Positions 2,112 through 46,628 of a stretch of DNA of 54,806 nt are shown here, piece after piece. The notes under the pieces were generated by a model, which was not told the DNA's origin, did not search any database, and saw only the letters and a program-made list of their open reading frames with translations. The translations under genes and the position numbers were made by a program. The stretch is from the IMG/VR virus record IMGVR_UViG_3300020205_001884, positions 1-54,806 of that record. One strand, 5' to 3'. The first letter of the stretch is position 1. Each line of letters opens with the position of its first letter. Source of the stretch: a virus.

Positions 2112-5100
2112 AGAACTGCAATTCCTCTCATATCTTTAACACGAGGAACATATGCAGCATTTTCACTATACAAGCAGATTTTTATAGCAAATCTTATAAA
2201 TTCTGCAGATGATGTTGGTGGTAAATCAAATTCTACATCAACAAATTCGTCTTCATATTGAGTAGAATATGCATCAAATGCAGTTGCTCCCATTTTTGGT
2301 ACCATTTGAACATATGGATTTTCATGGAAATTTCTGGTCTGTTCTACTGTTTGAGTTTTCAAGAAAGCTTGAATTTTGCTACCAGTTGGTTTATTTACAG
2401 ATAGTATCAATTTAAATCCATTCGACTCAAATCCGTCTTCCAGTGTTACTATTTTTGTAATATATCTAGCTCTTCTAATATTAGTAGTTTCTGAGGCATA
2501 GGGATTCAATTCACCATTGAGTTCTATGTTGTTACTATTCTCTATTAGATTCTTTACTGCAAATAATGTCAATCTTTCTGTATTAATTACAGGAGAAATA
2601 TCTTTATTTGTTGTAATACCAGTAGCAGTAAAATACAATTTACCACTGTCAAGAAGGGTTTGTGTTGATGTATATTTGATATCATCGTTTGCATTGATAG
2701 TATCATCTATAAAATTAATAGAAGTTCCTGTTGTCCAAGAAATCTTTGCATTTTCGAATTCTTGATATGTGTTATTTAGATTCAATAATTCGTATTGAAC
2801 TGTTTTACCAAGAGAAGCCGTTTCTACTGTGAATGTATATGGAGTGTTTGTAGTAAACTCGCACTTATTCATAGTCATCATCATATCCATTGCTGGTTGT
2901 GGTAACCATGTACTTGCATTAGATGATGTGAAGAACACACCAACATATGGCTGTTCTGTTACTCTTTGTGTGCTATTTAAAAGAGTTTGTCCTATTTCAG
3001 CTATGTAAATTTCATATTCATCTGAAGTTGATTTAACAACAAAGGAATGTTCTCCCGGTTCGAGATAAACAGGATGTTCAAATGTAAATTTAGTTATACT
3101 TGCAACATTATTAGAAGCCGGAAGATCTGAAGTGTTTACTTGAGATGGATGTAAAATACAAATACCACCAGAATAAATCTTATTGATATCCGGGAATCCG
3201 TTTACAGTTGGTCTTACTTCCACTGTTACTGGAATGTTTGTATCGTTTGCTGGTTTTCTAGCAAAGAATATATCTATACTGCTTAAGAAGATACCATCAG
3301 GATACAATTCTCTATTTATTTCAAATGTTTGTGCAAGAGGATCTCTCTTTTTGGTAGTAACAGTTGTCTGTGTTTGTACTCGTTCTTCAGTTCTGTTAAC
3401 ACTCTCAACATCAAATGTTCTTACCGTTGCGCTAGTTCCTTGTCGAACTTGTGACACACCATATGCACTGAATGTTGCTCCTGCAATAGTAGATGCACGG
3501 GTGAAATCATTACTAGAACTATCAGATACAGTAAACTTTCTATCGCCAGTTCTGAAAGTTGCTGCAGGCATATCAAAAATTATAAATGCACTTCCTTGAG
3601 CATTTGTTTTTCTTATCGTAGCAGCACTAAATTTCTTAGCGGAATCTAAAGTAGCAGAAGCGATTGCAGCATCAACTTCTGCAATACTATCGTAAGAATA
3701 GCATTGTCCAGATACATCAATTCCATCAAAGAATGGATATAATCTTGAATTTGATTTCATTCCAGTAACAAACACTTTAATTCTCTTGGCTCTCATGTAT
3801 GGAATTATAGAAACATCTACAATTCTATCTCCAAGAGATACTCTATCTGTTGATGTAGAAACTTGTTCTCCAACAATTTCTCTGCTTTGTTGTGTTGTTG
3901 AAACAGTGGTCGTTCTTATGAATCTTCCTCTGTTGTTGTTACTTGGATTAAATACTCCATTATTTTTTCTGCCTCTTTGGCGTGTTTTTGAAGTTTGTCT
4001 ACTGAAGGTACTCCAGTTACCATAATCAAGTGCAAATGGTCCTTCAGTCGAGCTGTTCAATTGTTCCACTATTCCTTGCCAAGCATCATTACTTCCAGCC
4101 AAGTTTACATTCAACTCTGGTATTGTGTTTGTATCTACCCAATCATCTTCTCGCGGAGACAATCTGATAATACCTTCACTTTGAACTACTTCAAATGGAG
4201 TTACTGTTATTGATCGAGTTGCTTGTGGTTGAACAACAAACGGTATTGATGTGAATGGCATCATATACAAACCAGTAGAAACATCACCATTTTTGGTTGT
4301 TCCTGTTACTCCAGTTTTATCATTAAATAACTCTATAAATGTAGTTTCCGCTGGTAATGGTATCAAAGGAATTGGCACATTATCAAATTTAGGTCTTGCA
4401 CAATTTTCTTGTTTGTCAATGGAAATATAATAATCTGGTTGAGAAACATCGCCTATTTTATGACTTTCAAAAGAATCGACTATTATTCCATTCTTGAATC
4501 TGTTATTGCCCTCTGCATCTTCTACTAAAAGAGAATCTGCATTTTTTTCCAACAGAGACAGAGCAGAATATACTTCTAATTGTTGAACTCGTTTCTCAAT
4601 TCTGCCGATATCTCTCATGGTATATCGCTTATTGTCTGTGTAGTTCAGTGTCAAATCTTTATTGGTGAAGATATATGATGGTTTATCAATTTTGTACAAC
4701 ACCAATCCACCTTCTGGTAGGGTTGGATATGTTGGACTTATACTAGATTCACCATATACAATCTTAAATGCACCATCTTTGTTGATGTACAATACATCTT
4801 TTCTTGGTAAATATATACCAAGAGTTGTGTTTATAGTAGATGATTGTGGTAATATTACAAATTTAGTATTACCAGCATCATTATTCTCTGTCATTAATGG
4901 TCTTGTGTCTATTATTGCAGAAGAGTGATAGGTACTACCATCTACTTTAGAAGAATAGAATGGCATATCCTTTACAGACGATTGCGCGCCTGTGATATCT
5001 CTATATGATTCTCTTACTATTATACCTGCAGTGCCTGTATTGATAGAGTTTGCAATACCAGTAACAGAAATGTATACAGAAAAATCTGTTGCATTCAAGC

Positions 5101-7966
5101 CAGTCTGTGTATAAACTGCTGAGATAGGAACAAAAGGAACAATTGGTCCTTGTAATGGATCTGTATTTTTATTTTCTTGCAATCCATCAGCACCCAATAC
5201 GAGTAGTGATTTGTTATAAGAATAATCGTCAGTTTGATTGGAGATACCGAATGCGTTTTTATGATTGGCACTTAACGGCAAGACTCCACCAACACCAAGG
5301 AAGAATACAGATATCAAAGAATCGACATCATACTTTGAAGTTTCTGCTACCCATTTACCTTTAAACTCTCCAGTAGTTTGATACTTCAAAAGAATAGTTT
5401 CAGTGAATTGTTCTTTTGTTTTTGTTTTTGTCACACTAGATGCAACGCACTTTACCTCTGCGCCTAATATCATTTTCGTGATTCCCCCCGTTGCGTCCGG
5501 GGTTTTTCTACGAACTATTATTTGATTTCTAGGAGAAGTTGGAGAATCTTGTAATAGATCGTAATATACAGAACTATGCTGTGCTGGTTTTGCATCTGTA
5601 TTTGCTTGCAATCCGGTATATTTTATTAATTTTATAGAATTGCCATTAGAATCTGCACCAAATGAGTATGAAGAAGAGAAGCTGCTAGCAAATTCTGCAG
5701 ATGAGATATTATCTCCAATGTCCACTATAAGTGTGTCTGCTGAACTAGATTCTCCTCCAGCACTGAAATCTATATTATAAATTTTCTGAATAGTTAATTC
5801 AGTTGTACCAAAATTAGAAACACCACCTGTAACATTTTCCATAACATCACCACCCGGCAAAGGTAATATCATTTTATCTGCAAATGGTTCATATAAGGTG
5901 GTTATAGGCATACCATTAACAATAGTTTGCGCCACATTCAATACAGGGAATATCTTTGTATAGTTTATACTATCTACTGTTTCTGTACCTGCTATACCAA
6001 TCTGAGAAACATTACTGAATGAAATGGCATCATATTTCATATCAGAATCCATTAAATGTATTTTATAATTGCCAGAATCTTCTTCTATTGCCTTGACGCG
6101 GGTGTTTCCAATAGATGATCCTTTTACTATCGTTCCAACAGAGGCGCTGCCGGTGAGATTTGGATCTGTTTGATCGGCTGCTGTGCTTTCTTGTAATACA
6201 GCACCTGATGAAAAATTATACCAATCAAACTGTGTCGGACCAGGAACGATGTTATTAAATTGTCTGATTGGTAGAATATTTCTTTGACTTCTGTTTAGAA
6301 TAGTAAGATTAGCAGTACCATCTCCACCTTCAGTTGCAATGGTACCAATACGGAATCTGGCAAGTGGTTGTGTTTTTGGTACTAATGTATTATTAGTGTC
6401 AAACAATTTAGGATCAATTGTGCCGTATTCGTATCGTTTGATTACCAATCTAGACGGTATTGTAGACAGCGCCGTTAGATTTGGCTCCCAAGAAACAACC
6501 TTACCTGCAGCATATTGAGTTATAACACCAGCTGGAGATTCTGTTAGTGCTTGTATTACAGTTTCTCCGACTGAGTATTCATAATCTGGATTATACGAAG
6601 TTTCGTTCGTTTCTATTGTTTGTACAAGATACTCGCCATTAGAAGTTCCTGCATCTGTAGTTGGCCAACCTTGATAGAATTCTGAACTAGTTTTATATGT
6701 TGATGAAGATGCTGTATTTTTTATATTAATGAAAGAACCGCTCTTACGAATAAAATTACTTTTATCAATAGAAATAGCAGATCCTCTAGAAATTAAAACA
6801 TTATTTTGATCTTTTTGATATATATTTCCATATTTTATTTCAAATAATTTACTAGGAGCAAGAACAATTAATACCTTAGTTTGACTATCCCAATTCAAAA
6901 ATGTACCAGTTATTTTATATTCTGTGTCAGAACCCCTACCAGTGGCTCCTCCATTTCCAGAATGTTTTCCAGCTGCTTCCCATTTCCACTGATATACTTC
7001 TTGTCCAGCAATAAAATTAGATCCACCTTCATCTGCAAATGCAATCCTCTGTACAGTACCACATTCTGGTGTACTTATTTTTTTAGTATTATTTATTCCA
7101 TATAAGCAGCAAGAACTTTTGCAAGAATTATTAGAATCACCAATACAGAGAAATGTACCACAGTCAGTACAATTGCCATTTTGATTTATAGCATCGTTCA
7201 ATGGAGCATCAAATTGAACGAATATGGAAAGTCTTTGAGATACAGTATCGATTGTACTCGCCAACACAGTTCCTTTATTAATAATATTGCTGTTGCATAT
7301 ATTAGTCTCTGAGGACTTTAATACGACTCTTTGTCCATATTCAAATTCACCAGAACCTATTGCAGTTCCTTCTGTACCAGTTGAATTTGTACAAGCAAGT
7401 CGATCAACTACGCCATATGCTTGTTCTGTTGTTAGTTTATATACATTTGACGCAGTTTGAATACTACTAACTGCAGATCCTGCCCACATTGGGTTTGCTG
7501 GATATACTATGCCTGAAGTAAAAGGAGCAATTTCGTTACAAAATATAACACCATTATTTACATTAAAGTTTGATGGAGCACCACTTTGATGAAACAGTTC
7601 TTTGATGAATAGAGTTCCTCCACCAGTTTCTTTAGATCCGGGAACCCAACGCAGTGCAGTGCCTTCTGCAATAACAGTTCCAGTTGCTCCATCTATTTGC
7701 TTGACTCTAAAATTCTTAGAGATTTCATAATTAGCACTGAATATATCTTCGCGAAATCCTAAATGTCCATCGGTACGATTTATTGGATCATATCCAGTTC
7801 TAAAATTTCCACGCCAATTGTCATTAAATACTATTTTAATAACATCGCCTATTTTGTCTGAAAAATTACTAGCAGTATATGTGGTAGATGTTGTCTCACC
7901 AGATACTACCATCAAATTTGATGCTAAATCGTTCTTAAATTCGTTGTTCGTATTAGAAGTGGTCAT
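2108..7966 (-). CDS. Very large virion structural protein (1,952 aa), baseplate/tail periphery
   Basis: The C-terminal half resembles large structural proteins of T4-like aquatic phages. Around residue 1115 there is a short helical stretch (YTMRDIGRIEKRVQQLE) followed by a segment containing NNRFKNGIIVDSFESHKIGD. Around residue 1540 comes DPLAQTFEINRELYPDGIFL, followed by a beta-rich domain with PVYLEPGEHSFVV. In related phages these motifs go with DUF4815-type proteins, and the preceding gene carries the DUF4815 N-terminal part. A Cys-rich patch (CTDCGTFLCIG, then CKSSCCLYG, about residues 265-310) could bind metal or form disulfides. The start ATG at 7966 lies 33 bases after the previous stop, with a weak AAAGG upstream. 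The last four bases overlap the 66-aa gene. Its exact place in the virion is unknown. Confidence 0.85.
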   Translation of the reverse strand: MTTSNTNNEFKNDLASNLMVVSGETTSTTYTASNFSDKIGDVIKIVFNDNWRGNFRTGYDPINRTDGHLGFREDIFSANYEISKNFRVKQIDGATGTVIAEGTALRWVPGSKETGGGTLFIKELFHQSGAPSNFNVNNGVIFCNEIAPFTSGIVYPANPMWAGSAVSSIQTASNVYKLTTEQAYGVVDRLACTNSTGTEGTAIGSGEFEYGQRVVLKSSETNICNSNIINKGTVLASTIDTVSQRLSIFVQFDAPLNDAINQNGNCTDCGTFLCIGDSNNSCKSSCCLYGINNTKKISTPECGTVQRIAFADEGGSNFIAGQEVYQWKWEAAGKHSGNGGATGRGSDTEYKITGTFLNWDSQTKVLIVLAPSKLFEIKYGNIYQKDQNNVLISRGSAISIDKSNFIRKSGSFINIKNTASSSTYKTSSEFYQGWPTTDAGTSNGEYLVQTIETNETSYNPDYEYSVGETVIQALTESPAGVITQYAAGKVVSWEPNLTALSTIPSRLVIKRYEYGTIDPKLFDTNNTLVPKTQPLARFRIGTIATEGGDGTANLTILNRSQRNILPIRQFNNIVPGPTQFDWYNFSSGAVLQESTAADQTDPNLTGSASVGTIVKGSSIGNTRVKAIEEDSGNYKIHLMDSDMKYDAISFSNVSQIGIAGTETVDSINYTKIFPVLNVAQTIVNGMPITTLYEPFADKMILPLPGGDVMENVTGGVSNFGTTELTIQKIYNIDFSAGGESSSADTLIVDIGDNISSAEFASSFSSSYSFGADSNGNSIKLIKYTGLQANTDAKPAQHSSVYYDLLQDSPTSPRNQIIVRRKTPDATGGITKMILGAEVKCVASSVTKTKTKEQFTETILLKYQTTGEFKGKWVAETSKYDVDSLISVFFLGVGGVLPLSANHKNAFGISNQTDDYSYNKSLLVLGADGLQENKNTDPLQGPIVPFVPISAVYTQTGLNATDFSVYISVTGIANSINTGTAGIIVRESYRDITGAQSSVKDMPFYSSKVDGSTYHSSAIIDTRPLMTENNDAGNTKFVILPQSSTINTTLGIYLPRKDVLYINKDGAFKIVYGESSISPTYPTLPEGGLVLYKIDKPSYIFTNKDLTLNYTDNKRYTMRDIGRIEKRVQQLEVYSALSLLEKNADSLLVEDAEGNNRFKNGIIVDSFESHKIGDVSQPDYYISIDKQENCARPKFDNVPIPLIPLPAETTFIELFNDKTGVTGTTKNGDVSTGLYMMPFTSIPFVVQPQATRSITVTPFEVVQSEGIIRLSPREDDWVDTNTIPELNVNLAGSNDAWQGIVEQLNSSTEGPFALDYGNWSTFSRQTSKTRQRGRKNNGVFNPSNNNRGRFIRTTTVSTTQQSREIVGEQVSTSTDRVSLGDRIVDVSIIPYMRAKRIKVFVTGMKSNSRLYPFFDGIDVSGQCYSYDSIAEVDAAIASATLDSAKKFSAATIRKTNAQGSAFIIFDMPAATFRTGDRKFTVSDSSSNDFTRASTIAGATFSAYGVSQVRQGTSATVRTFDVESVNRTEERVQTQTTVTTKKRDPLAQTFEINRELYPDGIFLSSIDIFFARKPANDTNIPVTVEVRPTVNGFPDINKIYSGGICILHPSQVNTSDLPASNNVASITKFTFEHPVYLEPGEHSFVVKSTSDEYEIYIAEIGQTLLNSTQRVTEQPYVGVFFTSSNASTWLPQPAMDMMMTMNKCEFTTNTPYTFTVETASLGKTVQYELLNLNNTYQEFENAKISWTTGTSINFIDDTINANDDIKYTSTQTLLDSGKLYFTATGITTNKDISPVINTERLTLFAVKNLIENSNNIELNGELNPYASETTNIRRARYITKIVTLEDGFESNGFKLILSVNKPTGSKIQAFLKTQTVEQTRNFHENPYVQMVPKMGATAFDAYSTQYEDEFVDVEFDLPPTSSAEFIRFAIKICLYSENAAYVPRVKDMRGIAVL

Positions 7967-7999
7967 TTATAGCTTTGCCTTTATTTTATATATCTCTGA

Positions 8000-9973
8000 T
8001 TAAGCAGGAGGATTAATTACTTCTACAAATAAAACACTCTCATGGGGAAAGAGTGCATCCACATCCGCTTCACTAATTTTGTTAATATCGACTATGTTTG
8101 CTTCATTTACTAATTTAAATTCTTCATTATTTTTAAATGGAGCCCATGCCAATATTTTTGATTTTTTCTGACCGCCGGTGGTGGGGTATAATAAAATAGT
8201 ATTTGTATTGACATCGATTAAATCTAATAATGGCAATTTCTCAAAATCTACATTACTTGATTGATTTGCATCTCTTGCTGCAAAAGAACCGTAGACATAA
8301 TTACCCAATTCAAAGTCAACATTTAATCCACTCAGAGATTTTATACTTGATTGATTACCACTATTTACATATTCAACTACTCTTGGTGCAAATGTTTCGT
8401 ATTCATAACCAAACACATATGCTTTTCCTGATTGTAATGTGATTGCTAATTTATCAGAACTTCCTACAGGAACATCCAGTCTTGAATATGCTCCCTTTGG
8501 ATCAATTAAAACTTCCACAGAAGAAACTAATAATAATTTATTTGTAGAACCTGTTGATTGTTTAAAATAATAGGAAGTACCGATAGATGATAATTTTTTA
8601 TTATTTTGTAATTCTACTACCAGCTTTGCAGTATTTTGTCCAGTTTCTTCATTATGATCTACAATAATATCAACAACTTTTGCAACAGCAAAAGCAGAAT
8701 CATTTAAATTAGTTGCAGAGAATGGATTAAAATTTGGTTGATTTGCTTGCCATATATACCCACCAACACTTATTAATACATTTGCCGCCTGTCCTATATT
8801 GCTAGCAAAAACTTCAGGAACAGATGTATCAGCTATGGTTAAAACATATTTGTCGTTTCTTAAATGATTTTTTACATCTGCAATAAAGGGAACCACGGTA
8901 TAAGAACCAGACTCGTCTTGTGTTCTTCGTGCAAACAAATCTAAAATTTGTGAATATGAGGATTTATCTTTAATATAATCCACAACTCCGCGTGTTGTTC
9001 TCAGAAGTTGTATGAAATCTGTATTTACATAATTCTCAATATCTACAGAAGAATTGTCATATTCAATTGCTTTTAATGTAAAATTGATACTATAACGATC
9101 TCCACCGGGAGCATTGTAGTTGTAGAATCCTCTTGCGGGATCTTTCAGAGTAGAATCTTGAGTGGCTGTTATAGTTTCTCTGTTTACAGTATAACCAATT
9201 CTATGTGATGGTTTTGCAAACAATCGAACCGCTTTGTTGGCAAAATTATAATCTAATCCAGTATCAACTGTTATTTCTGATTCATCTTCTGCAGATTTCT
9301 TGAACAGAGCAACTGTTTGTTTTGTAGATTTAACAAAATATCCATCAATATAGAAGATACCATCATCAACTGTTACCAGATATCCCTCTCCATATGGAGC
9401 TATTGTATATTGAGTTGGTGTGCCAGCTTGTTCTGCTGGATTTATAACTTTCAGAAACGGACCAGACGAACTCAATCCAATGTAGTGAGATCGTTGTATA
9501 TCAAAAGTTCCTGCTTGTTCCGGTGCAACCGAAACTGTATTATAGAAGGCAACAGGGTAATCATCGTTTACTGAATAATTAGATGGTTCAAAATACGATA
9601 TCTTGATAGTAGCCAATTCTGTAAATACAGAACCAGATTTGCTGAATACTTTAAGAAGATTGGAAGGCAATGTATCCAAATAAGTATCAGCAGAGTTTGT
9701 AGTGACTCCAGATGCGCTATGTGTATATTTCTCTACACGAGCATACGGATTGCTTACAATTTGTATCTTTCCTCCAAAGACTTGACTACCATCTTGAAAA
9801 ATGCTATCAGCAAATTTAGCAAGCTGTGATTGTAGAATTGTTTGTAGTTGTGTCAATTCTCTAGCTTGAACGGCATATCCTGGCTTGAAAAGAATTTTTA
9901 GAAAATTCTTTGCATCATCAAAGTCGTCAAAGTAAGGTGAGCTACTACTAAATTCTGGATTCTTAAATGTCAT
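8000..9973 (-). CDS. DUF4815-family virion structural protein
   Basis: The first 75 residues carry the family signature: SPYFDDFDDAKNFLKILFKP, then GYAVQARELTQLQTILQSQL, then DSIFQDGSQVFGG. This is the classic N-terminus of DUF4815 structural proteins (VrlC-like) of T4-like aquatic phages. The remaining 580 residues are beta-rich and of low complexity without obvious catalytic motifs. A good Shine-Dalgarno (GAGGA) precedes the ATG at 9973. It lies between the gp8 homologue and the 1,952-aa protein. In this family the motifs seen in the neighbouring large protein are, as I recall, normally fused to DUF4815, so this may be a split version. The function is structural, probably at the baseplate rim or fibre attachment; no enzymatic role is suggested. 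Confidence 0.85.
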   Translation of the reverse strand: MTFKNPEFSSSSPYFDDFDDAKNFLKILFKPGYAVQARELTQLQTILQSQLAKFADSIFQDGSQVFGGKIQIVSNPYARVEKYTHSASGVTTNSADTYLDTLPSNLLKVFSKSGSVFTELATIKISYFEPSNYSVNDDYPVAFYNTVSVAPEQAGTFDIQRSHYIGLSSSGPFLKVINPAEQAGTPTQYTIAPYGEGYLVTVDDGIFYIDGYFVKSTKQTVALFKKSAEDESEITVDTGLDYNFANKAVRLFAKPSHRIGYTVNRETITATQDSTLKDPARGFYNYNAPGGDRYSINFTLKAIEYDNSSVDIENYVNTDFIQLLRTTRGVVDYIKDKSSYSQILDLFARRTQDESGSYTVVPFIADVKNHLRNDKYVLTIADTSVPEVFASNIGQAANVLISVGGYIWQANQPNFNPFSATNLNDSAFAVAKVVDIIVDHNEETGQNTAKLVVELQNNKKLSSIGTSYYFKQSTGSTNKLLLVSSVEVLIDPKGAYSRLDVPVGSSDKLAITLQSGKAYVFGYEYETFAPRVVEYVNSGNQSSIKSLSGLNVDFELGNYVYGSFAARDANQSSNVDFEKLPLLDLIDVNTNTILLYPTTGGQKKSKILAWAPFKNNEEFKLVNEANIVDINKISEADVDALFPHESVLFVEVINPPA

Positions 9974-9980
9974 TTTTTCC

Positions 9981-12395
9981 TCAAGACTCGATTAGGAGTT
10001 TTAGATTTTCTGTATTTTCTATCCGTCTTTGTATAGGACCGGCATCATTTATATATAACAAATTTCCAGAATATCTAACCACAGTTGGTTGGTAGATTAT
10101 ACTTTGTACTGTCAATTTCATATTTGTATATGTGGTTGGATTATACAAATCATTTATAATGTATAAATTATCATTACTTACTGTAAATACTCCATTATAG
10201 TTATTTACATACAAATACACAATATCAGTATTGCTAGTTCCGCCAGGAATAGCAGTTCTTATTAATTTTCCAACAGTTCCTTGTGTTCCTTGTCGTATAA
10301 GAATGTTGGTATCTAAAGAAATCCCATCTGCTACGAGTTGTTCTGGTGTGTTTATTAGTCCAGCACCTCTATCAATAGCACATTCAAGTATATAAGAGTA
10401 TCCTACGGTACTATCATCTCCAATTGTTTGAATAGTTTCACTGACTGAAACCAGTGTACCTCTCTTACCAACCGAGGCAACACTTCCTGTGACACGGAAT
10501 GCAGTAACTACCTCACCGGGAATATACGAACCGTCTTCATATCTTGCTGGCAAGAAACCAGTAGTCACATTTTTTACTTTTATTGTTGCTTTGGTAGGAT
10601 AGTGTGGGTGTACAAAACCATAACCCGTTGGTGGGGGTACAATCTGAGCAGTTGCAAAACTGGTACCACCATTTAAAGAACTATCCAAAATAAAGTCAGA
10701 AGAATTGTATGTATTTTCATATACTACTTCTATACTGTTAGAACAATTATTATCACAGTCTTGGAAAATAAATTCTTCGTCATCTCCAGTTTCTGTTGTA
10801 TTTTTTAGATTTTTGATTCTATAACCAGAATATGTTTCAAATGCACCATTGACTAAAGAACAAGTAAGAGCAGTAGAAAACCCGGTACTTGTTACATTTG
10901 TTATTATTGCTCGGAACTGATCTGGATAGTTGTTAGGTCCTCTAGTAATAACATCATTAATTTCAAAGAAATTTGCAGGATTTGTATAAGGTGTGACTGT
11001 TGTTCCTATTGTTATGGTAACTGTAGGATCAATTGCTTCTATTATCATTTCTTTTACTTCAATTACAGTTGTTCCAGCAATTTCTTCTAACCCATTTATG
11101 AATTTTTTGGGACTCTTTACCAGAGATATTTGTGTATAATATGTGTTTGGAGAAATTATATTTAAATATTCGGCTCCATCGTATACAATTCCTGTATTTT
11201 CTGGGGCAGAATACACAACCGGATCACTCTCGCTCAAAGATGATAATGGCTTTATTTTCTTAGAGATCATTATGTGTCTTGCACCAAGAACTTCAATCAC
11301 ATCTGATGCTAATCCATTCAGACCAATCACTGGTTTAATTACTGTTCCATTTTCCACTAAAACAGACACATCAACATAACTATAATTAGAACCACCATCA
11401 ATCATTGTTATTTTTGATATTAGTTTATCTTCTGTCATTACTGGAATTGCAATAGCTGAAGATCCATTTCCAATAATTTCTATTCTTGGTAATATAGAAA
11501 ATTGTACACCCTGTGGTGGTGATGCAGCAGAACTCGGATTACATAAAGTTAATTGTAAATATCCAGTGGTAGGATCAACAGCCGATGTTTGTATTGTTGC
11601 TGTATATTTGTTTTCAAAGTAAATAACATATTTATTATCGTAAAATCCATCAGTTAGTGCTAATTCTAGTCTTCCGCTAGGATCTATTGTTATTATAGGA
11701 AATTCTGCAGTATCTGTATTTTGTGATGCTATAAAATATAAAGCATTTGTAAAATTAACATTTACTGCACCAGCGTATGCATTTCCTTGAACTGAAACAT
11801 CAATCGCTTCTATTGCTCCTCTGATTGCTGCTGATGCAACATTCTGTTGATACAGTCTTTGATCTGTATACAAATCTGTTCCAATTTCTTGAATAGGAAT
11901 AAAATTAGGATAATCAAATTTTTCTAAATCTTCTTCTGAGATTTGATATAAAAATTTCCAAGTATATCCATCTAGTTTTATTTCTGGTTCTGTGCTCAAA
12001 GAACTAGGAGGATATGTACTTGTCGCAGAGGTATTTGATGGACTGGCCAAGCACAGATAAACAGATCGATTATCTGAATTATATGCATAAAACAAATCAC
12101 CCGACTCGTATTGATTTTTATCTTTGTTCAAAGCAACATAAACTTGATTTGCTTGCCACGGTATATTTTTAATCATCAAAGAAACATCAGATCTTAGAAT
12201 TTGATTCATAAAAAACATATTATCAAATGCAGTATAATCCGCTTGAATTGTGTCTGGTGTGGGCAATATGGTTGCCACGGAACTTGTAACTGCATTGCCA
12301 ATAGCAAGGAAGTACGAATGATCTTTTGATGCATTAAAGTCATTCAACAAAACTTTTGCTGTATTTTCTCTTCCTCTTTGTCTAAATGTTGCCAT
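9981..12395 (-). CDS. 8: Baseplate wedge subunit, gp8-like
   Basis: The N-terminus has typical gp8-family features of T4-like phages: an opening with FRQRGRENTAKVLLNDFN and YFLAIG, a segment resembling MIKNIPWQANQVYVALNKDK, and around residue 140 the diagnostic KLDGYTWKFLYQISEEDLEKF followed by FIPIQEIG. Length (804 aa) is more than twice that of T4 gp8 (334 aa); the extension is beta-rich, as in other aquatic T4-like phages. gp8 is a wedge component that links the inner wedge to the outer structures. Gene order (gp6, a wedge-type protein, then gp8) agrees with T4, except that two very large genes are inserted before gp8. A GAGG ribosome-binding site precedes the ATG at 12395. Confidence 0.85.
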   Translation of the reverse strand: MATFRQRGRENTAKVLLNDFNASKDHSYFLAIGNAVTSSVATILPTPDTIQADYTAFDNMFFMNQILRSDVSLMIKNIPWQANQVYVALNKDKNQYESGDLFYAYNSDNRSVYLCLASPSNTSATSTYPPSSLSTEPEIKLDGYTWKFLYQISEEDLEKFDYPNFIPIQEIGTDLYTDQRLYQQNVASAAIRGAIEAIDVSVQGNAYAGAVNVNFTNALYFIASQNTDTAEFPIITIDPSGRLELALTDGFYDNKYVIYFENKYTATIQTSAVDPTTGYLQLTLCNPSSAASPPQGVQFSILPRIEIIGNGSSAIAIPVMTEDKLISKITMIDGGSNYSYVDVSVLVENGTVIKPVIGLNGLASDVIEVLGARHIMISKKIKPLSSLSESDPVVYSAPENTGIVYDGAEYLNIISPNTYYTQISLVKSPKKFINGLEEIAGTTVIEVKEMIIEAIDPTVTITIGTTVTPYTNPANFFEINDVITRGPNNYPDQFRAIITNVTSTGFSTALTCSLVNGAFETYSGYRIKNLKNTTETGDDEEFIFQDCDNNCSNSIEVVYENTYNSSDFILDSSLNGGTSFATAQIVPPPTGYGFVHPHYPTKATIKVKNVTTGFLPARYEDGSYIPGEVVTAFRVTGSVASVGKRGTLVSVSETIQTIGDDSTVGYSYILECAIDRGAGLINTPEQLVADGISLDTNILIRQGTQGTVGKLIRTAIPGGTSNTDIVYLYVNNYNGVFTVSNDNLYIINDLYNPTTYTNMKLTVQSIIYQPTVVRYSGNLLYINDAGPIQRRIENTENLKLLIES

Positions 12396-12405
12396 TGTGG
12401 TCCTC

Positions 12406-15400
12406 TTATGTACTTTGATCAGTATTGATAGAAGTATCTAGTAATATTTGTTTTATTGTGGCATCTTTAATTGGTTTTGTTGCTCTGAATGCAGTAGATT
12501 TAGACTCTATTTCATAGACAGGTAATGATCTGTTTTCTGTAATAACATCCAGTGGATCTAGCGTATCAATTACTTCAAATCCAGCAACATATTCAAGAAC
12601 ATCGGCATGTACATCTTTTACTAATTGTAGATCGTTCTTATGTGCAGATGTCCAGAAAACATATCCTCGCTCAATGAAATTTTTAATATTTACGAAAATT
12701 TCATTTCTAACTTTGTTATAGAAAGCAGAATCTCTAACATGATTTCTTCCATCCCACGGCTCTAGAGCAGGATTAGTAATAGGTACTGGAGCTGGTTGTG
12801 CAATGCCTTGATCATGCCATGCTGGTGTTAATTGCCATATATTACCATAATCCTGAGTAGCACCCTGCCCGACTGCTGGAAAATATTGTCTATACAAAGA
12901 ACGCAAAGTCGGACTTAACAAATAATAGTTTTCTACATAAACACCTATCTCCGTATTTCTTCGATACCAACACCACATATTATTTGGATCTAATCCTGCC
13001 CAATTTGAAATAGTACCCATATTATGTTTTCCAATATTCCATTCACCAGAATTCAAATAACCACTCTGAAGAATTACATAAGGACAATATTGATATGCTC
13101 CTGCACTATAAACCAGTCCGTTTGGATCTGTTGGTGTTCTATAATCTTTACCCAGCGGATCTAGTTTACGATACCGTTCTCTTCCTTTATTTGCCCAGCA
13201 AGCATCTGCGTATACTGGATTTATGCTATCTAGTGTGGCGCCGCCTGGAACAGAAATTGCTTTACATACTTCAATGGAAGTATCCGTTAAATACACGGTT
13301 TTTCTAGGAAAAGTGGTATTTACTATTTGATTGAATTCATTCAATATCGGTGCTTTAGGATCTCTTGGAAGTGCTTCTGCTATGACAGTCTTTAGTGTTG
13401 GCCATTTTTCCATTAGCCATTTTCTGTAGTCACCGACTGGAGATTTAGATGCAGCAGTAGCACCAGATGACATGGTGCCTCCATTTGCATAATTAAATGC
13501 CCCCTCTCCGGCATCTAATCCAATAGAAGTTATTCCAATATCAATCCATGGCTGTAATTCGTTAGTTAAGAATGCTGCATGTGCTGCGATATTTGCAGGA
13601 TCTGGAATTTGCCAACCTCTTCCAGTAGCAACATTTTGCCCTACACTACTAACACCGGCTTCACCAACCATTGCAATATGAGTACTTGCATTAGGAACTC
13701 CATCTACTGTTGGAATTGCATAACCTATATAAATTCCAACATCTGCATCTGAATGGGTAGGGCTAGCAATCCACTCACCTAATTTATCCAACCATTCATC
13801 CAATCTACCATTTGGATTGAAAGTAGCAGCATTTGCTTGTGCTACAGTCTGTGGTATGAATAAATTGGTTGTAGGATCTTTTACTGTTATTCCTGACCAG
13901 CAAGATTCTGCCGGATTTATTATACCTCCAGTATATACTCTATTTTTCATTGCAGAAGATATTGCAGATGTATAACCTCCACCATCGGCTGACAAATATC
14001 CACATGGAAGCCATAGCATAAATCTACGAACTCCTCTGTTATAATTCCAATCAAGATGATCTTGTATAAGTTTAGCAATTCCAGTATTTTTAGTAAAGAT
14101 ACTCACACCATTAACAAAATTAAGATACTTTGCTGCAGCATCTCCTCCCGACACAGAATCTGGTATTGTTGATACCGGTCTTCTATCGACATTGAAATTT
14201 GCTGCTGGTTGTGGCCAATCTCTGATATAAGTTCGTTCAGGATTTTTCATATATTTGGCCAAGCTTGCATCTTTTCTTGCAGCCAAAATATACATCAACC
14301 CCTGAACACGCTTAGAAGTTTCTGAGAATCTTCTGTGTGGCCAACCAGAACTATCCAATGCTTGTGCTTCTGCTACAGTTGCTGGTGGTGTTGTAATGAA
14401 TGGATCAAATCTTCCATTTTGACCATGATATCCAATCCAATAAGAATCATTTCCATAATCTTCATATGGCACAGCAACCATATCATCATATGATGCATAC
14501 TCTACAGCAATTCCATAAATGTGTCTTCTAGCATTTAAGAGTGTATGTATTCCAGCACCACCATGAGATCCAGCCGGGATTATAGGATCAGAATAACAAT
14601 ACCCAATACACCTTTCAATCCCATCATTAGAAAAAGACACATCATAACCAAAAGGACTCATTATTGGACTAATGTAATTAGCAATATCATTATCCCGCCA
14701 TGCCAGCAGCCCACCATCCTGCATACCAGCATATAAAAGTTCACCATCATCTGCAATTTTAAATACTGGAGATCCGCTATCTCCATCGTGGAGTGAACCA
14801 TCTGCGACTAAAAATCGACCACCAATCGACGCACTAAGTTCGTCTGGAGACGGAACTAACGATATTTCATAATCACCACTAACTCTCTTATACGATCTTC
14901 CTTGATTTTCAAAAACCCATAAAGTTTCTCCTGCATCAATTCTAGACCAATTTGCAAATTTATTATAAATTTTTACATCATTTCCATCAAATGCATCCTG
15001 TGTACCTCCAAATTCAAATAACAGCTGATCAATCGGCCGCGGACCTGTCCATAGTTGGCCAGACACTTGTGTAGAGCCATCCCAATATACTTTTGTAATT
15101 GTTTTAAAGTACATTTGTCCAGATTTTCCTAAAAATCCAATCTGTCTGCCTATAAAATCTTGTTGACGATCCCATTGAAAATAATGCAGACATGCTAATG
15201 CGTGTCTAGGAGAAATTAATACAACAGCTCCACTATTTGTATTATAAAAATTTATATCAGTCGGATCTATTGTTATTGTTAATTTCGATTGATTTTGATA
15301 AACTCCTCTTTGTTTAAAGGATCTGTATCGTATACCAATACCAGAAAAATCTACACCGGCTAATGTTGCTCGACAGGTTTCACTATACCCTATTGGTATT

Positions 15401-15513
15401 CCATCTATACTACTCTGTGGAATTCCATCAATTAATGGTAATATAAATTGTGCAGACGGATTAAAAGTATAGACATCATGGATTACGGGATTATAATTTT
15501 TAAGTATTGCCAT
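12406..15513 (-). CDS. Tail protein with N-terminal trypsin-like serine protease domain and a C-terminal glycosidase-like region
   Basis: Residues about 90-270 look like a chymotrypsin/trypsin-fold protease. VVLISPRHALACLHYF provides the histidine (H110), PIDQLLFEF a candidate aspartate (D162), and HDGDSGSPVF the nucleophile serine (S246) in a textbook GDSGSP motif. The second half (about 330-1000) is Trp/Tyr-rich with repeated strand-helix character (RRFMLWLPCGYLS, GITSIGLDAGEG, YVFWTSAHKNDLQLVKDVHA) resembling a TIM-barrel glycoside hydrolase, but I cannot assign a family or catalytic acids. The C-terminus ends LLDTSINTDQST. No clear Shine-Dalgarno is seen; the ATG lies 9 bases after the previous stop. 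It sits between the giant beta-helix protein and gp8, so it is probably a virion component that digests surface protein or glycan during adsorption. Confidence 0.72.
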   Translation of the reverse strand: MAILKNYNPVIHDVYTFNPSAQFILPLIDGIPQSSIDGIPIGYSETCRATLAGVDFSGIGIRYRSFKQRGVYQNQSKLTITIDPTDINFYNTNSGAVVLISPRHALACLHYFQWDRQQDFIGRQIGFLGKSGQMYFKTITKVYWDGSTQVSGQLWTGPRPIDQLLFEFGGTQDAFDGNDVKIYNKFANWSRIDAGETLWVFENQGRSYKRVSGDYEISLVPSPDELSASIGGRFLVADGSLHDGDSGSPVFKIADDGELLYAGMQDGGLLAWRDNDIANYISPIMSPFGYDVSFSNDGIERCIGYCYSDPIIPAGSHGGAGIHTLLNARRHIYGIAVEYASYDDMVAVPYEDYGNDSYWIGYHGQNGRFDPFITTPPATVAEAQALDSSGWPHRRFSETSKRVQGLMYILAARKDASLAKYMKNPERTYIRDWPQPAANFNVDRRPVSTIPDSVSGGDAAAKYLNFVNGVSIFTKNTGIAKLIQDHLDWNYNRGVRRFMLWLPCGYLSADGGGYTSAISSAMKNRVYTGGIINPAESCWSGITVKDPTTNLFIPQTVAQANAATFNPNGRLDEWLDKLGEWIASPTHSDADVGIYIGYAIPTVDGVPNASTHIAMVGEAGVSSVGQNVATGRGWQIPDPANIAAHAAFLTNELQPWIDIGITSIGLDAGEGAFNYANGGTMSSGATAASKSPVGDYRKWLMEKWPTLKTVIAEALPRDPKAPILNEFNQIVNTTFPRKTVYLTDTSIEVCKAISVPGGATLDSINPVYADACWANKGRERYRKLDPLGKDYRTPTDPNGLVYSAGAYQYCPYVILQSGYLNSGEWNIGKHNMGTISNWAGLDPNNMWCWYRRNTEIGVYVENYYLLSPTLRSLYRQYFPAVGQGATQDYGNIWQLTPAWHDQGIAQPAPVPITNPALEPWDGRNHVRDSAFYNKVRNEIFVNIKNFIERGYVFWTSAHKNDLQLVKDVHADVLEYVAGFEVIDTLDPLDVITENRSLPVYEIESKSTAFRATKPIKDATIKQILLDTSINTDQST

Positions 15514-15522
15514 TGTTTAATA

Positions 15523-18500
15523 CTAACAGTTAAATGTTGAAAATGAATTGTTCCTTATACGCGAACTGTCATTCATTGGAGTTGGTAGGATGTATGGATT
15601 TGCCACTATGTCTCTGCAACCTGCATGTGGGGTTTCTCCTTGGGCACAAGGTCTCAATTGATTGTTGTATCCCGGTGGTGCAGAAACTTCATTTGGGAAA
15701 TATGAACTAACTACACTTTGTAAATTATTGTCAGACCAAATAATTTCGTCTTTATTCTTTAAAGCAGAACCTAATTGACTTCTAACAAGGAAATCATTCC
15801 ACATATTTACCCACACAGAATGTCTTAAAAAACTCTTTCTATTGGTGTTTTGAAACAAATTAGCAGCAACATATTTACGATCCCCTGCTTGATGATTTGC
15901 AACAGATTCTGATATTGGAAACGAACTAACTTCTATAGTATTGAATTCGCAACGACAAGCTGGTATTGCACACGGACATGTATAATTGAATGATTTTTTA
16001 TATCCACCATTAACAGGATCACTTGAATTATAGAATTCGTATCCCGAAGGTGCTACTTGAGATCCGCAGACTCCTTGCACCATGAATGAATATAATTTAC
16101 CAGATGATTGATTATTGAATAAACCGATTCTTGCTTGTTCGCTATGATGCACACTCATCTGTCTGCTTTTATTTGTTTCAGAATTATTCATCAAGGTTTC
16201 ACCACCGGCAGTAAACCCATCTGATGTTGCCGCATAGTATTTATGTGCATTATTTACAAGATCTCCGTGTACAGAATTTGGATAATGATTCAATCCAGTT
16301 ATAATGAAATTACTTGGATCTATTTGAGGCATAAGAGCAGTCATTTCTGGTCTTAAATCTAAAACATCAGGTTCACCTTCAGCTGGTTCAAAAATGCACA
16401 TTTTTGCTATTGCTGCAGCCAAGGCGAATACCTTGTTTTGTACTGCTTTCAGTGCCTTTATATTGAATTCTCTTTTATCTTCGAAAGATAATTGATTAAA
16501 CGCAGCATCGCCAGGATAATCTATATCTAATTCATCACAATATGGACAAGTAGCAACTCTAGATTGATTGTCTGAAGTATTTTCTAACAGATCCAATTCA
16601 CCCCACATCAGTGGGCCGGCAGTAGGATACCATTCTGATTTCCAATTTTGATAATAAGGGAAACTCATCATATCATAATGATTTATGTTTGCTTGAGATC
16701 CCCATACTTCACGAATTTTGTTATTCATTTTTCTGGTTAGTTTTACATATGAAACTACTTTCTGCCATATCTTATCATTCACCAGCACACCACCCATACC
16801 ACCATATTGACCTGGTCCAAATCTAGCAGTCATATCTAATCCACGAATTTGATCTACTAATTGATCTTCAAAATTGACAAATACTCGTTTCGGTGTATAT
16901 ACACCATTAACAAAATCATCATCTGACCAAGTTTTCCAGGCGTCTCCTTGAGTTATGCACGGTGGTACTATAGGTGAATGCATTATCTTATATGCATATT
17001 CTTCTTGTTCCTTTGCGGACTCAAGTACCTTTGTATATGTGGACATGAAAAGTGCGTCTGCACATCCATCATCTTCGCGTATCGGAGCAAATATAAATCC
17101 ATTATACTTCCACATATTGCCTGGTTCATATTTTGTTGGCAACCCATCATTCTCTGAGCGAATTTCTTTTGCACCAGAAACGATCATTGGACATTCATGT
17201 CCGGGAAGTAATCCAGCTGAAGGGTTTGGTAGTATTATGTTATCATTTACTAATTTAATAGCAACACCATCTGTTGCTCCAGCTTTAAGTAATGAAACTT
17301 TTCCCCACGCCCACAATTCTCCGTTGCGTTTTAGTGCTAGTGTGAATCTTGCGCCAGCATCTATCCAGAGACATTGACCAAGATCTAATGGAACATTACA
17401 TTCTCCCTCTGTATTTTCTCCCCAACACACAACTGTGCCGTTTTCTCTGAGGGCACATGTATGGTGATATCCACCATTTATTTGCTTAAATGGACCATTT
17501 GGTAATCCTGTAGTTCCGTCTGAATTTTGATATGGAAGCGACTCACCCCATTCATTTCTATCCCATGCAAAAATACTACCGTCTGGTCTGATAATTTGAC
17601 TAGTATAATATCCTGTTCCAATTGCCTTTACAGAATTAATATTTCTCTTAACCCGTTTAACCTCAAAATATGTACCATATCCGTGTGGTATGGCCGGTGG
17701 GTTTCCATTTCCACTTGGTTGACCAACACGACCCCATCCCAAATTTTCTCCAGTATCTGGATCTACGGGAGCAGGACCACTTCCGGTGATTGTGTAATAC
17801 CAATTTTGACCCCATGTTTCTATGTTGCCAGTTTCTGTTAATAATAAACTATGGGCTCTTCCAGCAGCAATATCGATGTATTTCTTTAATGCTGTACCAA
17901 AAACAGAATTATATACTAGTGCTCCACCTTCGGCCGCGGAATTTTCATAGCCAATTTCAACTCCTCCAGATGCCTGTACCATTGGAATATTCTCTTGGGC
18001 TCTCCTCCACCCACCACTACCAACAGAATAATTGACTCCGGGTGAGCCTAAGTTTGTGTCTCTTGTTGTATGTCTGCTAAATTGATAATCGTTTGGTGCT
18101 CCGGTGTACTGTGCCCAATTTATTTTACCACTCCAAGCAAAATTTCCACCTTGTTCTATTGGATATGTTTCTCCAGTTATTACATATGGAGTATCATACG
18201 CACCATTTGGATTTGCTTGAGTATATTCATTATTTGAATGAAACGGACAGCCTAATAAATTATTTCTAAATATTCTATAATGTCTATTTTCTGGCACAGG
18301 CACACAACTATTACTCATTGGTTGACCGTCAGTACCACCATCAGTAGTGTCATCAAAAGTATACATCAATGATGATTTCTTTTGATCATAAAAGAAATCT
18401 TGATATGGGATCCAATCTATAATATATTCGTGATTCGTTGCAGTTGGAGTAGGAATAAGACCAATTGGTGTCCATACAGTATTTGGATCACTACATTGAG

Positions 18501-24353: not shown

Positions 24354-26282
24354 TTATAAGTCGTTTTCTATAAAGAGAAATGCAGCAAATGGGTGTTCTG
24401 GTCCGGGATTATCTGTTGAAATTTGATCTGTAGAATACATGTCTGTTGTATTTGTAATAGGAGGTACGATTGATAATACTACGGTCCAATTTGGTACAAG
24501 AATCCTAGTTTCTCTTTCTCTTTGTTGCGGCCTTTCAACTTCTACCTCTGCTGCTATATACTCTTCTAACTCATCAGTAGAATATGTTATTTGATCTGTG
24601 CTTACATCTGTTCCAGCATCAGTAGAAGTTGTAGATACTACTGGTATATCTATACTAGGAGGAAACGGTTCATATTCCGCAATAATTAAACTTGCTACTC
24701 TTTTATTAAATGGTGCAGTTCTTGCCACCAAATTTTGGAAATCATCTACATCCTGATCAAATGCACCAACATCAAATGAAGTGAAACTTATTTGTTTTGC
24801 TTCGATTATAGAATCTATGATGTCATACTTATAGAATGCTTTATATCCAGCTGGATGTACAGCTTCTTTAAGAATATCAGAATAGCGATATGGAGTTATA
24901 GCAGCGCCAATTTCATATGAATTTTGTTGATAATAGAAATTATCTTGGAGTACTGCTATTTGCGATAATAAAGAATATTTGTTTTGGTATTTACCTTGCT
25001 CATAAAAGATATAGCCAGTTTCAAATTCAATAATACAATTATTGATCTCTCCGTTTATCACGATTGTGTATGCTTCATTTATAGGCGAAGTATACTCAAA
25101 TCCAGGATTTAAAATTTCTATTTTCTGAATTTTACCAAATTTATCTATTTCCTGAACAGATGCAATAAAATTATAACCATCAACCGGAGTTGTATCTAAA
25201 TCTGTAGTTTCAACAGAATTACACGAAGAACATGAATGAGATCCTGTGTTTTCAAACCGTATCTTTTGACCAACTTTGAAATCATAAACAGGACAATCTT
25301 TTGGTGTTGCAGAAACTACCATAGGACTTAGCGTCAATTTTGTAGTTTCTTCTATACCAGCTAAGATGTATTTGTAATACACAGTAGAAGATGGTAAAGT
25401 GCCATTTATTCCAGATAAAAGTAGAGTTGCGTATATACTACCTTTTTTGGTTATAACAATAACATCATCAACATATGCTGAAAATACTTTATCACCAGAA
25501 TTGTTTAATGCATAGATTTCAGTGGAATGTATTGTTTCTAATTGTTCATGGGAATTTACTTTTGCAATTACAAATACAGATTCTTTCCATTTAGCTTGTG
25601 ATGCAATTAGCATCTTTTCTCGTGGATAAGTTAATGTAATTTCTGTATCAAACATCAAACGAAAAAGAAATCTAAATGAGTCTTCTGTTCCTTTTTTGGA
25701 ATAAAATTCTCTAATTCTTTTTATTACTTTAGTTACATCTACGCCAGCACCTGTCTCTTTGTCCTTAGAGAATTGCGTAGGAAAAGATGAAAGATATGTT
25801 GCATAAAATTTATCAAGCAATTCTGGTGGAATGGTATCAACATCCAAGAACTGCTCTATACTGTGTGGAATTAAATTTGGATCTTTTGATGATTCCAACC
25901 AAATATAATAATATTTTACAAAATCAACAAATACTGAATATTCTTGTTCTAAAAAATCAGGAATACTAGAACTAACAACCGAAGATAATTTGTTCTTTAA
26001 TTCTATCGTTATTGGTTTAGCTGAAAATTCTACAGTATTTCTTGTAGAAATTATCTCTTTTCCATATTTATTTTTTACATATGCAACAAGTACATGATCC
26101 CCTTCTGGTACTGTTATTTCAAATAAACCAGATCTTGCAGTTTTTTCGAAAAGAACACCATCAACATCAAATATAACTTTATTGAATATCCCCTCAGTAT
26201 CCTTTACCTCATAATTAATAACAACTCGATTTGAAAAAATCAAATCTCCTGCTGTTGGAGTTTTAATCGTGAGTGATATCAT
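24354..26282 (-). CDS. Baseplate wedge protein with Ig-like N-terminal domain (gp7-position)
   Basis: Residues 1-95 look like an immunoglobulin-type beta sandwich (LTIKTPTAGDLIFSNRVV, then VIFDVDGVLFEK, GDHVLVAYVKNKYG). From about residue 100 the sequence has the typical start of a conserved wedge protein of T4-like aquatic phages: SIPDFLEQEYSVFVDFVKYY, then YATYLSSFPTQFS, then IREFYSKKGTEDSFRFLFRL. The C-terminal 80 residues are a Ser/Thr/Asp-rich linker with STDQIT and STDQIS. It overlaps the gp6 stop by 4 bases. In T4, gp7 (1,032 aa) follows gp6, so position suggests the gp7 role of wedge initiator, but sequence alone does not prove that homology. Length is well below T4 gp7. Confidence 0.68.
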   Translation of the reverse strand: MISLTIKTPTAGDLIFSNRVVINYEVKDTEGIFNKVIFDVDGVLFEKTARSGLFEITVPEGDHVLVAYVKNKYGKEIISTRNTVEFSAKPITIELKNKLSSVVSSSIPDFLEQEYSVFVDFVKYYYIWLESSKDPNLIPHSIEQFLDVDTIPPELLDKFYATYLSSFPTQFSKDKETGAGVDVTKVIKRIREFYSKKGTEDSFRFLFRLMFDTEITLTYPREKMLIASQAKWKESVFVIAKVNSHEQLETIHSTEIYALNNSGDKVFSAYVDDVIVITKKGSIYATLLLSGINGTLPSSTVYYKYILAGIEETTKLTLSPMVVSATPKDCPVYDFKVGQKIRFENTGSHSCSSCNSVETTDLDTTPVDGYNFIASVQEIDKFGKIQKIEILNPGFEYTSPINEAYTIVINGEINNCIIEFETGYIFYEQGKYQNKYSLLSQIAVLQDNFYYQQNSYEIGAAITPYRYSDILKEAVHPAGYKAFYKYDIIDSIIEAKQISFTSFDVGAFDQDVDDFQNLVARTAPFNKRVASLIIAEYEPFPPSIDIPVVSTTSTDAGTDVSTDQITYSTDELEEYIAAEVEVERPQQRERETRILVPNWTVVLSIVPPITNTTDMYSTDQISTDNPGPEHPFAAFLFIENDL

Positions 26283-28168
26283 TTAATCGGTTTTCTGAAT
26301 GCAGACTCAATCAAGTTAATAACAGTTGCATTTCTATCATTTGTGTCTATTGATAATATGGTGTTAGGATTCACAAATATATCGCTGTCTACAACATTCG
26401 CAAATATCTTTATGGTATTGTTTTCGGCAGAATATATTGGATTGAATTTTACTAAATTCATTTCTCCAGTTTCATAATCAATTGTGCCAATAGATTCTGG
26501 CGATAATACAGACAGATCTAAATTATCAAATCTTCCAATTGAATAACTCAAACCATCTTGTTCATAGCCAATATAAATCAATCCAAATCCATCGTCATAT
26601 AGCTTACAGACACGGACTACATTTTTGTAATCCAAGTATGTAAATGAATTGCTTTGAATGTTCGGCACATCTATACTATTACTCCTTTGAATTGCATTTT
26701 GGAATTTTACAGTATAGGATCTTGCTGCACCATATTCTGGTATCAAACGATATTCTAATTGAGGAGTAATTGTCACACTCAATATAGAAGAATCCATATC
26801 AAGAATAGAAGCTTCCAGTTCATTTGCTATCAGATCTGCGTCAAAGATATCCAAATTAGTTATTATGTAATCATCAATTGCTTTGATTATTTTTGCATTT
26901 AATTGAACAATTGATCCTTTATTTTTAACAATATCTACCTTAGCATCACAATTTATAATAAGGTATATTATATTTGGATCTACCAGTTCAGGTACAACCC
27001 CAACAACTCCTCTGTTCTTAGTCAAAGATTTCAATATGGCATTCTTTTCACTGCTAGTAAGTGCTGCTCGATTTTCCGGTTTAATACAAATGAATACTTT
27101 ACCGTATGCAGGTGGATCGTTTTCTTCTCCTCCCCAGCATTTTATAGATTTGATGAATGCAAAATCTTTTTGTAAAATTATAGAATAATCACTTGCAGTC
27201 ACTGCTCTTTCTTGTGTAGTAAAATTCTTTGGAGCATTGTACTTGATGGAATTTGTTGTTTCTTTCTCCGAACCACCAAAAGAAGGTAGTACGACTTTTA
27301 CAGTATCTACAGAATCTAACGAATTAAATACTCTATTGGATTCTGCATCTGTGAATCCTATGTCGTTTGCTTCTGTTCCGCTACTTTCTAAGAAGGTAAT
27401 AGTAACTAGATTACCTTCGTTTAATCTTTTACCCAAAATACCATCGCCAAAATATATTCTATAATACTCATCCGGTCCTTCTTCTAAGAAGAATACATTA
27501 GACTCACCATTGATTAATGTTATATTTTGAGATTCTGTCCAAGTAGCATCACTTCCTGTATCATTTGAGGCGCTATTTTGAACTGTTATCGATATAGTTT
27601 GTGTGTCTATATTTTTGTATCTGAGTGTGAATTTTTGAGTTGGATTTGATCCATCTATAACGAAAGAATTGGTTCTTAAGAATCCTTCACGAATAGCAAC
27701 GGATCCTGTTGTGTAGTTGATAGGAGTTATTCCATCAACATCGATTTCGTTTACACTAAAGGTTGCTTCTTCTAAATTATAGAAAAAGAATGCAGTAGAA
27801 TCTTTATTGGCTTTAAATGCTTGATATTTTGGTAATATGAGAGATCCTACTATCGCTCCGGTATCTGAAGCAGATCTAACAATTTCCACTATGCAAGTGG
27901 CACTTCTAGAAGAAGAGGGGGTATATCCTAAGTTTTTAGCAATAGACACAACAGAAGATCTTTTCTGTGCAGTATCCAGAAAAGCTTCATTGAAAGTTAT
28001 GTTATTGTATAATGCTTGATAATGTGTGTTGTATGCAAGTATGTCCAACAGAATATTTAAGGTAGATCCCTCAAAATTGTAACCACTAAACTTATCTTGA
28101 TTCTTTAAGAACGAAATAAGATTTTGTTTGATGTCGTTGTAATCTAGCTTAGAAAAATCCGGATTCAT
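26279..28168 (-). CDS. 6: Baseplate wedge subunit gp6
   Basis: The N-terminus is diagnostic of the gp6/J-like family: DYNDIKQNLISFLKNQDKFS, then GSTLNILLDILAYNTHYQAL, then ITFNEAFLDTAQKRSSVVSI followed by AKNLGYTP. A central segment (TTQERAVTASDYSIILQKDF, about residues 315-335) matches the region after which baseplate J-type proteins form the inner ring. At 629 aa it is close to T4 gp6 (660 aa). gp6 dimers form the continuous inner ring of the baseplate and bind gp25 and gp53, which are encoded nearby. Its start overlaps the gp25 stop by 4 bases, and its stop overlaps the next start by 4 bases. Confidence 0.93.
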   Translation of the reverse strand: MNPDFSKLDYNDIKQNLISFLKNQDKFSGYNFEGSTLNILLDILAYNTHYQALYNNITFNEAFLDTAQKRSSVVSIAKNLGYTPSSSRSATCIVEIVRSASDTGAIVGSLILPKYQAFKANKDSTAFFFYNLEEATFSVNEIDVDGITPINYTTGSVAIREGFLRTNSFVIDGSNPTQKFTLRYKNIDTQTISITVQNSASNDTGSDATWTESQNITLINGESNVFFLEEGPDEYYRIYFGDGILGKRLNEGNLVTITFLESSGTEANDIGFTDAESNRVFNSLDSVDTVKVVLPSFGGSEKETTNSIKYNAPKNFTTQERAVTASDYSIILQKDFAFIKSIKCWGGEENDPPAYGKVFICIKPENRAALTSSEKNAILKSLTKNRGVVGVVPELVDPNIIYLIINCDAKVDIVKNKGSIVQLNAKIIKAIDDYIITNLDIFDADLIANELEASILDMDSSILSVTITPQLEYRLIPEYGAARSYTVKFQNAIQRSNSIDVPNIQSNSFTYLDYKNVVRVCKLYDDGFGLIYIGYEQDGLSYSIGRFDNLDLSVLSPESIGTIDYETGEMNLVKFNPIYSAENNTIKIFANVVDSDIFVNPNTILSIDTNDRNATVINLIESAFRKPIK

Positions 28169-28560
28169 CTATTCCTCTCTAGATTAACTTGCAGAGATTG
28201 TGATTGTAAATTTTCTTGATTTACTACTCCATAAGTTATCTGTATTGTTAAACCATTCTGATCTTCCGAACTAACAACATCTACTTCTTGTAATTTAACT
28301 CGCGGTTCGTACTTATTGATTATATATTCAACTTTTTCACGAATTATATTCTTTCGAATGAAATCTGGAAAATTCTCAAACAAAACCTCTCTCAATCCTA
28401 CATCTATGTCTGGATTGAAAGGTTTATCGAATTTATTGAGTAATAGCAAGTTTTTCAGGGATTGTTTGATAGCATTACCATCTTTTAGGATATTAATATC
28501 CCCCGTTGAAGGATTTTTAGTAAAATCATTACTTATATCTGTTATGTTTAATTTTGCCAT
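28165..28560 (-). CDS. 25: Baseplate wedge subunit gp25
   Basis: At 131 aa this is the usual size of gp25 (132 aa in T4). Family motifs are TGDINILKDGNAIKQSLKNL, followed by KPFNPDIDVGLREVLFENF and by IREKVEYIINKYEPRVKLQE. gp25 has a lysozyme-related fold without activity and joins the wedge to the sheath-initiator region. It is located directly before gp6 with a 4-base overlap, as is common in contractile injection systems. The start ATG (28560) shares its base with the last base of the membrane-protein gene upstream. Confidence 0.93.
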   Translation of the reverse strand: MAKLNITDISNDFTKNPSTGDINILKDGNAIKQSLKNLLLLNKFDKPFNPDIDVGLREVLFENFPDFIRKNIIREKVEYIINKYEPRVKLQEVDVVSSEDQNGLTIQITYGVVNQENLQSQSLQVNLERNR

Positions 28561-40834: not shown

Positions 40835-40846
40835 AGTTATTTCTTT

Positions 40847-43931: not shown

Positions 43932-43934
43932 AAA

Positions 43935-44726: not shown

Positions 44727-44749
44727 AATAACTCTTTCTAATTAGTTTA

Positions 44750-46616: not shown

Positions 46617-46628
46617 TATAATTTCCTA

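Follow-up and report, generated by a model that had tools for sequence, protein, structure and literature searches.

Known phage tail enzymes mostly act on sugars and glycans or on peptidoglycan. A trypsin-like (Trypsin_2-type) protein is encoded by the T4-like rhizobial phages phiM9 (phiM9_102) and P10VF (PMC10783043). This rhizobial phage protease, phrog_9683, is similar to the protein described here in being trypsin-like and in belonging to T4-like phages. However, it is a free-standing protein of 230 aa encoded outside a tail gene, and in phiM9 its gene adjoins head genes. We considered that our protein could belong to the same family and rejected the idea, as it has no PHROG match and the hhalign probability is 0.7%.

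The protein of interest is encoded in a viral genome fragment (IMG/VR record IMGVR_UViG_3300020205_001884), the whole 54,806-nucleotide stretch of which was analysed and is referred to below as the window (GC about 35%). Its ORF lies on the minus strand; it starts with an ATG at 15513, encodes 1035 aa and stops at 12406-12408. The complete protein finds no match in Pfam, PHROGs, NCBIfam, PDB sequences or phage genomes. A sequence-only reading had placed the gene in a tail operon, and indeed it stands among the baseplate genes of a T4-like phage, with gp53, gp5-OB, gp25, gp6 and a gene at the gp7 position upstream and a gp8-like gene downstream (Table 1). Two DUF4815 genes are also found downstream, and gp32 is present in the window. 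Two genes of 1952 and 657 aa at 2108-9973 (minus strand) each correspond to a different part of phrog_358 and of DUF4815, resembling a single tail gene that became divided. A further stretch, 40244-51755 (minus strand), holds a series of genes of the sugar/glycan type (DegT aminotransferase, GDP-mannose dehydratase/epimerases, glycosyltransferase-like and methyltransferase-like); GC over 40-50 kb is about 28%, below the rest of the window.

Table 1. Features of the peptidase locus and its surroundings (window coordinates)
Feature	Positions	Strand	Remarks
gp53	32985-33710		upstream of the ORF
gp5 OB	30862-31704		upstream of the ORF
Baseplate wedge gp25	28165..28560	-	GPW_gp25
Baseplate wedge gp6	26279..28168	-	phrog_219 E 2e-151, Gp6-like_1st
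Baseplate wedge gene, gp7 position	24354..26282	-	PF23786, phrog_17744; upstream of the giant
Giant tail gene, 2942 aa	15523..24351	-	beta-helix, RCC1 repeats
Split point	15514..15525	-	giant stop TAG (15523-15525), then TAT TAA ACA and ATG, same reading frame
Whole ORF	12406..15513	-	N-terminal putative serine peptidase and C-terminal tail-giant domain; full-length 82% homologue L001
Peptidase cassette, residues 1-301 (MAILKNYNP...)	14611..15513	-	no counterpart at the junction in related phage L038/L039
Predicted catalytic His110 codon	15184..15186	-	invariant, 11-member family alignment
Predicted catalytic Asp162 codon	15028..15030	-	invariant, 11-member family alignment
GDSGSP motif, residues 244-249	14767..14784	-	Ser246 codon 14776-14778; all 11 homologues keep GDSG and P249
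C-terminal domain, residues 302-1035	12409..14610	-	equals C-terminal end of the L038 giant, 56% identity
gp8-like baseplate wedge gene	9981..12395	-	directly downstream of the ORF; phrog_438 E 3.8e-42

In our opinion, residues 1-301 form a serine peptidase of the chymotrypsin fold (PA clan, S1-like) that is probably catalytic, as judged from the sequence and from a structural model. The complete triad H110, D162 and S246 with its GDSGSP motif, as originally claimed, stands. The pattern GDSG[SGT]P occurs once in the 20,152 aa of window ORFs, where about 0.001 occurrences would be expected, hence the motif is not a matter of chance. The homologue in L001, which is 82% identical in the best segment, retains all three residues; its residues 201-300 are only 48-58% identical to those of the window ORF, and the triad is nevertheless kept. 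Using the N-terminal domain as query brought up more members of the family, with about 26-37% identity to the window sequence. In the resulting 11-member alignment 24 of 298 columns are invariant, among them H110, D162 and S246 (the chance of three preset positions all being invariant is about 5e-4) and also G244, D245, G247, P249, H12, D13 and H104. The pair His12-Asp13 (window 15475-15480, minus strand) thus is fixed family-wide, far from the triad in sequence.

The fold could be examined by structure prediction followed by a Foldseek search. The model of the N-terminal domain obtained with AlphaFold is of low confidence (pLDDT 52, pTM 0.61), and from this model came matches to double beta-barrel S1 peptidases: the best E-value against PDB is 9e-6, there are 151 matches with E<=1e-3, and the matches listed are all S1 peptidases. 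VIA-align gives Z-scores up to 12.0 (thrombin, Esp) at 3.3-4.6 Å rmsd over about 170-200 residues. The order of elements in the model fits S1 as well, with H110 in a short helix preceded by two strands and D162 and S246 each just before a strand. Sequence profiles point the same way, though weakly. The best matches of the family profile among PDB sequences are weak and mostly trypsins and Hbp (E 0.13-0.25), the best Trypsin_2 E-value in the family is 0.0025, and the window domain does not reach the Pfam Trypsin_2 (PF13365) cut-off (15.2 bits vs 27.6). The designation "trypsin-like" applies to the fold only. In the family members read, the residue six before the catalytic serine, which corresponds to the trypsin Asp189 position if no gap is assumed, varies between S, P, V, T and G and is never D, so that Arg/Lys specificity is not predicted.

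The peptidase belongs to a hitherto undescribed family, found in phage sequences only. No bacterial homologue was detected in the genome contig scan, nor in 392 Planctomycetota genomes, a set that included no genome with a known match as a positive control. The relatives share a similar N-terminal start, MA(I/V)(L/I)xxYxPxxHDI, and come in several architectures. The peptidase is joined to the tail-giant domain in the window and L001, to a C-terminal Dockerin_1 domain in 6 of the 12 records searched, and to other large parts in proteins of 580-963 aa (L063, L064, L065); there are also forms of 322 and 412 aa (L004, L033) with no dockerin match. The window protein has no Dockerin_1 domain. In the tree the window pair stands apart from the dockerin set, with weak support, and L063-L065 are separate. 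Five of the 12 records encode gp23, the T4-type capsid protein. In L059, gp20, gp23 and tail-tube genes precede the gene for the peptidase.

The sequence-only reading also spoke of a large glycosidase-like part. Residues 302-1035 are indeed a separate region, but a glycosidase fold is unproven: the model has a pLDDT of 32 and gives weak TIM-barrel matches with Z up to 6.7. The domain, which finds no match in Pfam, PHROG or PDB sequences, is possibly a (beta/alpha) barrel. Searches of phage genomes with the peptidase homologues, and others with this domain, likewise returned no match.

The relationship of the ORF to its giant neighbour can be read from a related phage. In L038/L039, which are 56% identical to the window ORF over the C-terminal domain, the giant and this domain are one ORF of 3976 aa (read in L038), without a peptidase. 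Residues 41-2942 of the window giant align with residues 353-3234 of the L038 giant. The match to the window giant stops at L038 residue 3234; that to the 1035-aa ORF sets in, from residue 295 of the latter, at L038 residue 3240, while its residues 1 to about 300 have no counterpart in the L038 giant. The peptidase of about 300 aa thus is located exactly at the junction, and the gene is thereby split. The end of the giant reads TGT TAG TAT TAA ACA ATG, in a single frame, in L001 as well as in the window. The family profile finds no member in the 77-kb (incomplete) contig of L038. Modules are gained or lost in these giants in other places too, since a SASA esterase domain is found near the N-terminus of the L038 giant (L038:254-2500) and not in that of the window.

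Insertion of the cassette into a fused gene is the simpler reading of this comparison, since the cassette, like any inserted gene, brings with it the start seen in free-standing genes. Nevertheless the reverse history deserves mention. The split, peptidase-bearing form could be the older one, with the cassette later removed and the halves joined in the L038 lineage. Such a loss is conceivable because the fused form is known from one lineage (L035 and L036, which stem from the same two contigs, yielded identical fused ORFs), and the GC3 of the cassette equals that of its flanks, so no recent import is visible. However, loss would require an in-frame deletion that restores a continuous giant, and we regard this order of events as possible but doubtful. 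It concerns the origin of the gene only and is compatible with the role that we propose below.

As to function, we lean towards a tail-borne peptidase that would cut a host surface protein at adsorption. A host-surface-degrading protease had been suggested before, and it is the most plausible role that we can infer from the fold, the triad and the tail-operon setting. Under this explanation, a phage peptidase cassette of about 300 residues would have entered at a junction between domains and broken up a gene like the 3976-aa one of L038. Two stop codons in frame, together with a newly gained ATG, now separate the giant from the ORF for the peptidase and C-terminal domain. The protein would be built in, via its C-terminal domain, at the distal baseplate or tail-spike region. 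There the peptidase may cut an S-layer, a pilus, a glycoprotein or a secreted matrix, with glycans being bound or cut by other domains. By-eye reading reveals no evident signal peptide in the ORF, which makes carriage in the virion or lysis the likely exit from the cell. Evolutionary rates are also relevant here. Between the window and L001, dN/dS is highest in the peptidase domain (0.57, dN 0.174), against 0.38 and 0.21 for the two halves of the C-terminal domain, 0.26-0.30 for the giant and 0.10 for gp8. Fast change around a fixed triad fits an enzyme that meets a changing host target, or relaxed constraint.

The alternative offered originally, that the peptidase processes the giant neighbour during assembly, has been weakened. 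A maturation protease that cleaves the giant or other tail proteins would not need any action on the host; phages do employ proteases in head assembly, and the gene is adjacent to the giant, in the same operon and orientation. But in L038 the giant and C-terminal domain form a single polypeptide with no family member in the contig, and a fused relative that is peptidase-free disfavours processing of the giant. Further, the halves in the window are already separated by stop codons, and most of the homologues found, several of them with a dockerin, do not adjoin such a giant. We therefore consider this role unlikely.

We give less credence to the view that the fold was retained as a binding or structural module, with catalysis lost or irrelevant. 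Enzyme folds without activity are known generally, and an 813-aa protein in L033, whose kinship to the family is not established, has GDIGSP and could be counted in favour of this view. A non-catalytic module would, however, be expected to lose one of the conserved residues somewhere, and all 11 aligned members have kept H, D, S and GDSG although identity to the window drops to about 26-37%. The L033 protein (L033:9278-11719, minus strand), with GDIGSP where a peptidase would have GDSGSP, may be a dead peptidase in its own right; we do not claim it as a relative (hhalign probability 5.8%).

Least probable, in our opinion, is that the protein acts outside the virion, breaking down proteins of the host or of competitors within or near the cell when it lyses. 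The free-standing genes of the dockerin-type relatives and the lack of an evident signal peptide would agree with such a role, but it sits poorly with a peptidase that in the window is joined to part of a tail giant and encoded amid baseplate genes.

Tail carriage may not be the general role of the family, because the six dockerin records have no tail domain or adjacent giant and their peptidases are free-standing genes. It is tempting, if quite speculative, to imagine a phage-only cassette that moves among T4-like phages, either in tail giants or with a dockerin, the dockerin form hooking onto planctomycete cohesins and cutting the surface protein coat. If so, such a phage would aim its protease via the docking system of the host itself. 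No cohesin was found in the 12 phage records. One dockerin-type phage also encodes a 1446-aa protein (L067:11967-16307, minus strand) containing a domain of about 210 residues that also occurs in the window giant (33%, E 1e-23).

A lead to the host comes from another dockerin-type phage. Directly upstream of its peptidase gene is a gene (L061:1164-2252) for a pilin-like protein with N_methyl. Five MAGs, of which three are named planctomycetes and one is labelled Bacteroidia, have genes that are 80-81% identical to it along the full length. On the strength of this identity to genes in planctomycete MAGs, the T4-like L061 phage probably infects a planctomycete; the lead applies to this phage only and not to the phage of the window. 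Four of the five MAGs have 18-27 dockerin matches each, together with weak cohesin matches; none of the five has a match to gp23 or the peptidase. A literature search found no relevant study on phages of Planctomycetota and nothing direct on a phage dockerin or a virion trypsin. Dockerin-bearing relatives, one with a planctomycete-like neighbour gene, thus represent a lead to phages of this phylum.

How, then, does this locus compare with what has been described? With S1 peptidases (Esp and Spl of Staphylococcus, thrombin, TMPRSS11D) the window domain has in common the His-Asp-Ser order, GDSGSP and a fold match with Z about 12. It differs from them in being only 10-16% identical, in having no Pfam S1-type match over the cut-off, in lacking an Asp where trypsin has residue 189, and in being part of a tail gene of a phage. 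The related phage peptidases of six records, but not the window protein, resemble type I dockerin proteins of Planctomycetota in that they likewise end in Dockerin_1. Together with L038, the split giant offers a before/after pair for the gain or loss of tail modules. Finally, like the phage tail spikes and fibres that carry depolymerase or esterase domains, the window protein is large, modular and encoded near baseplate genes, and the giant of L038 even includes a SASA esterase domain; the module of the window protein, however, is a predicted serine peptidase. A family of S1-like peptidases borne on tails would be unusual among these proteins, and it provides a testable case of the degradation of a protein coat.
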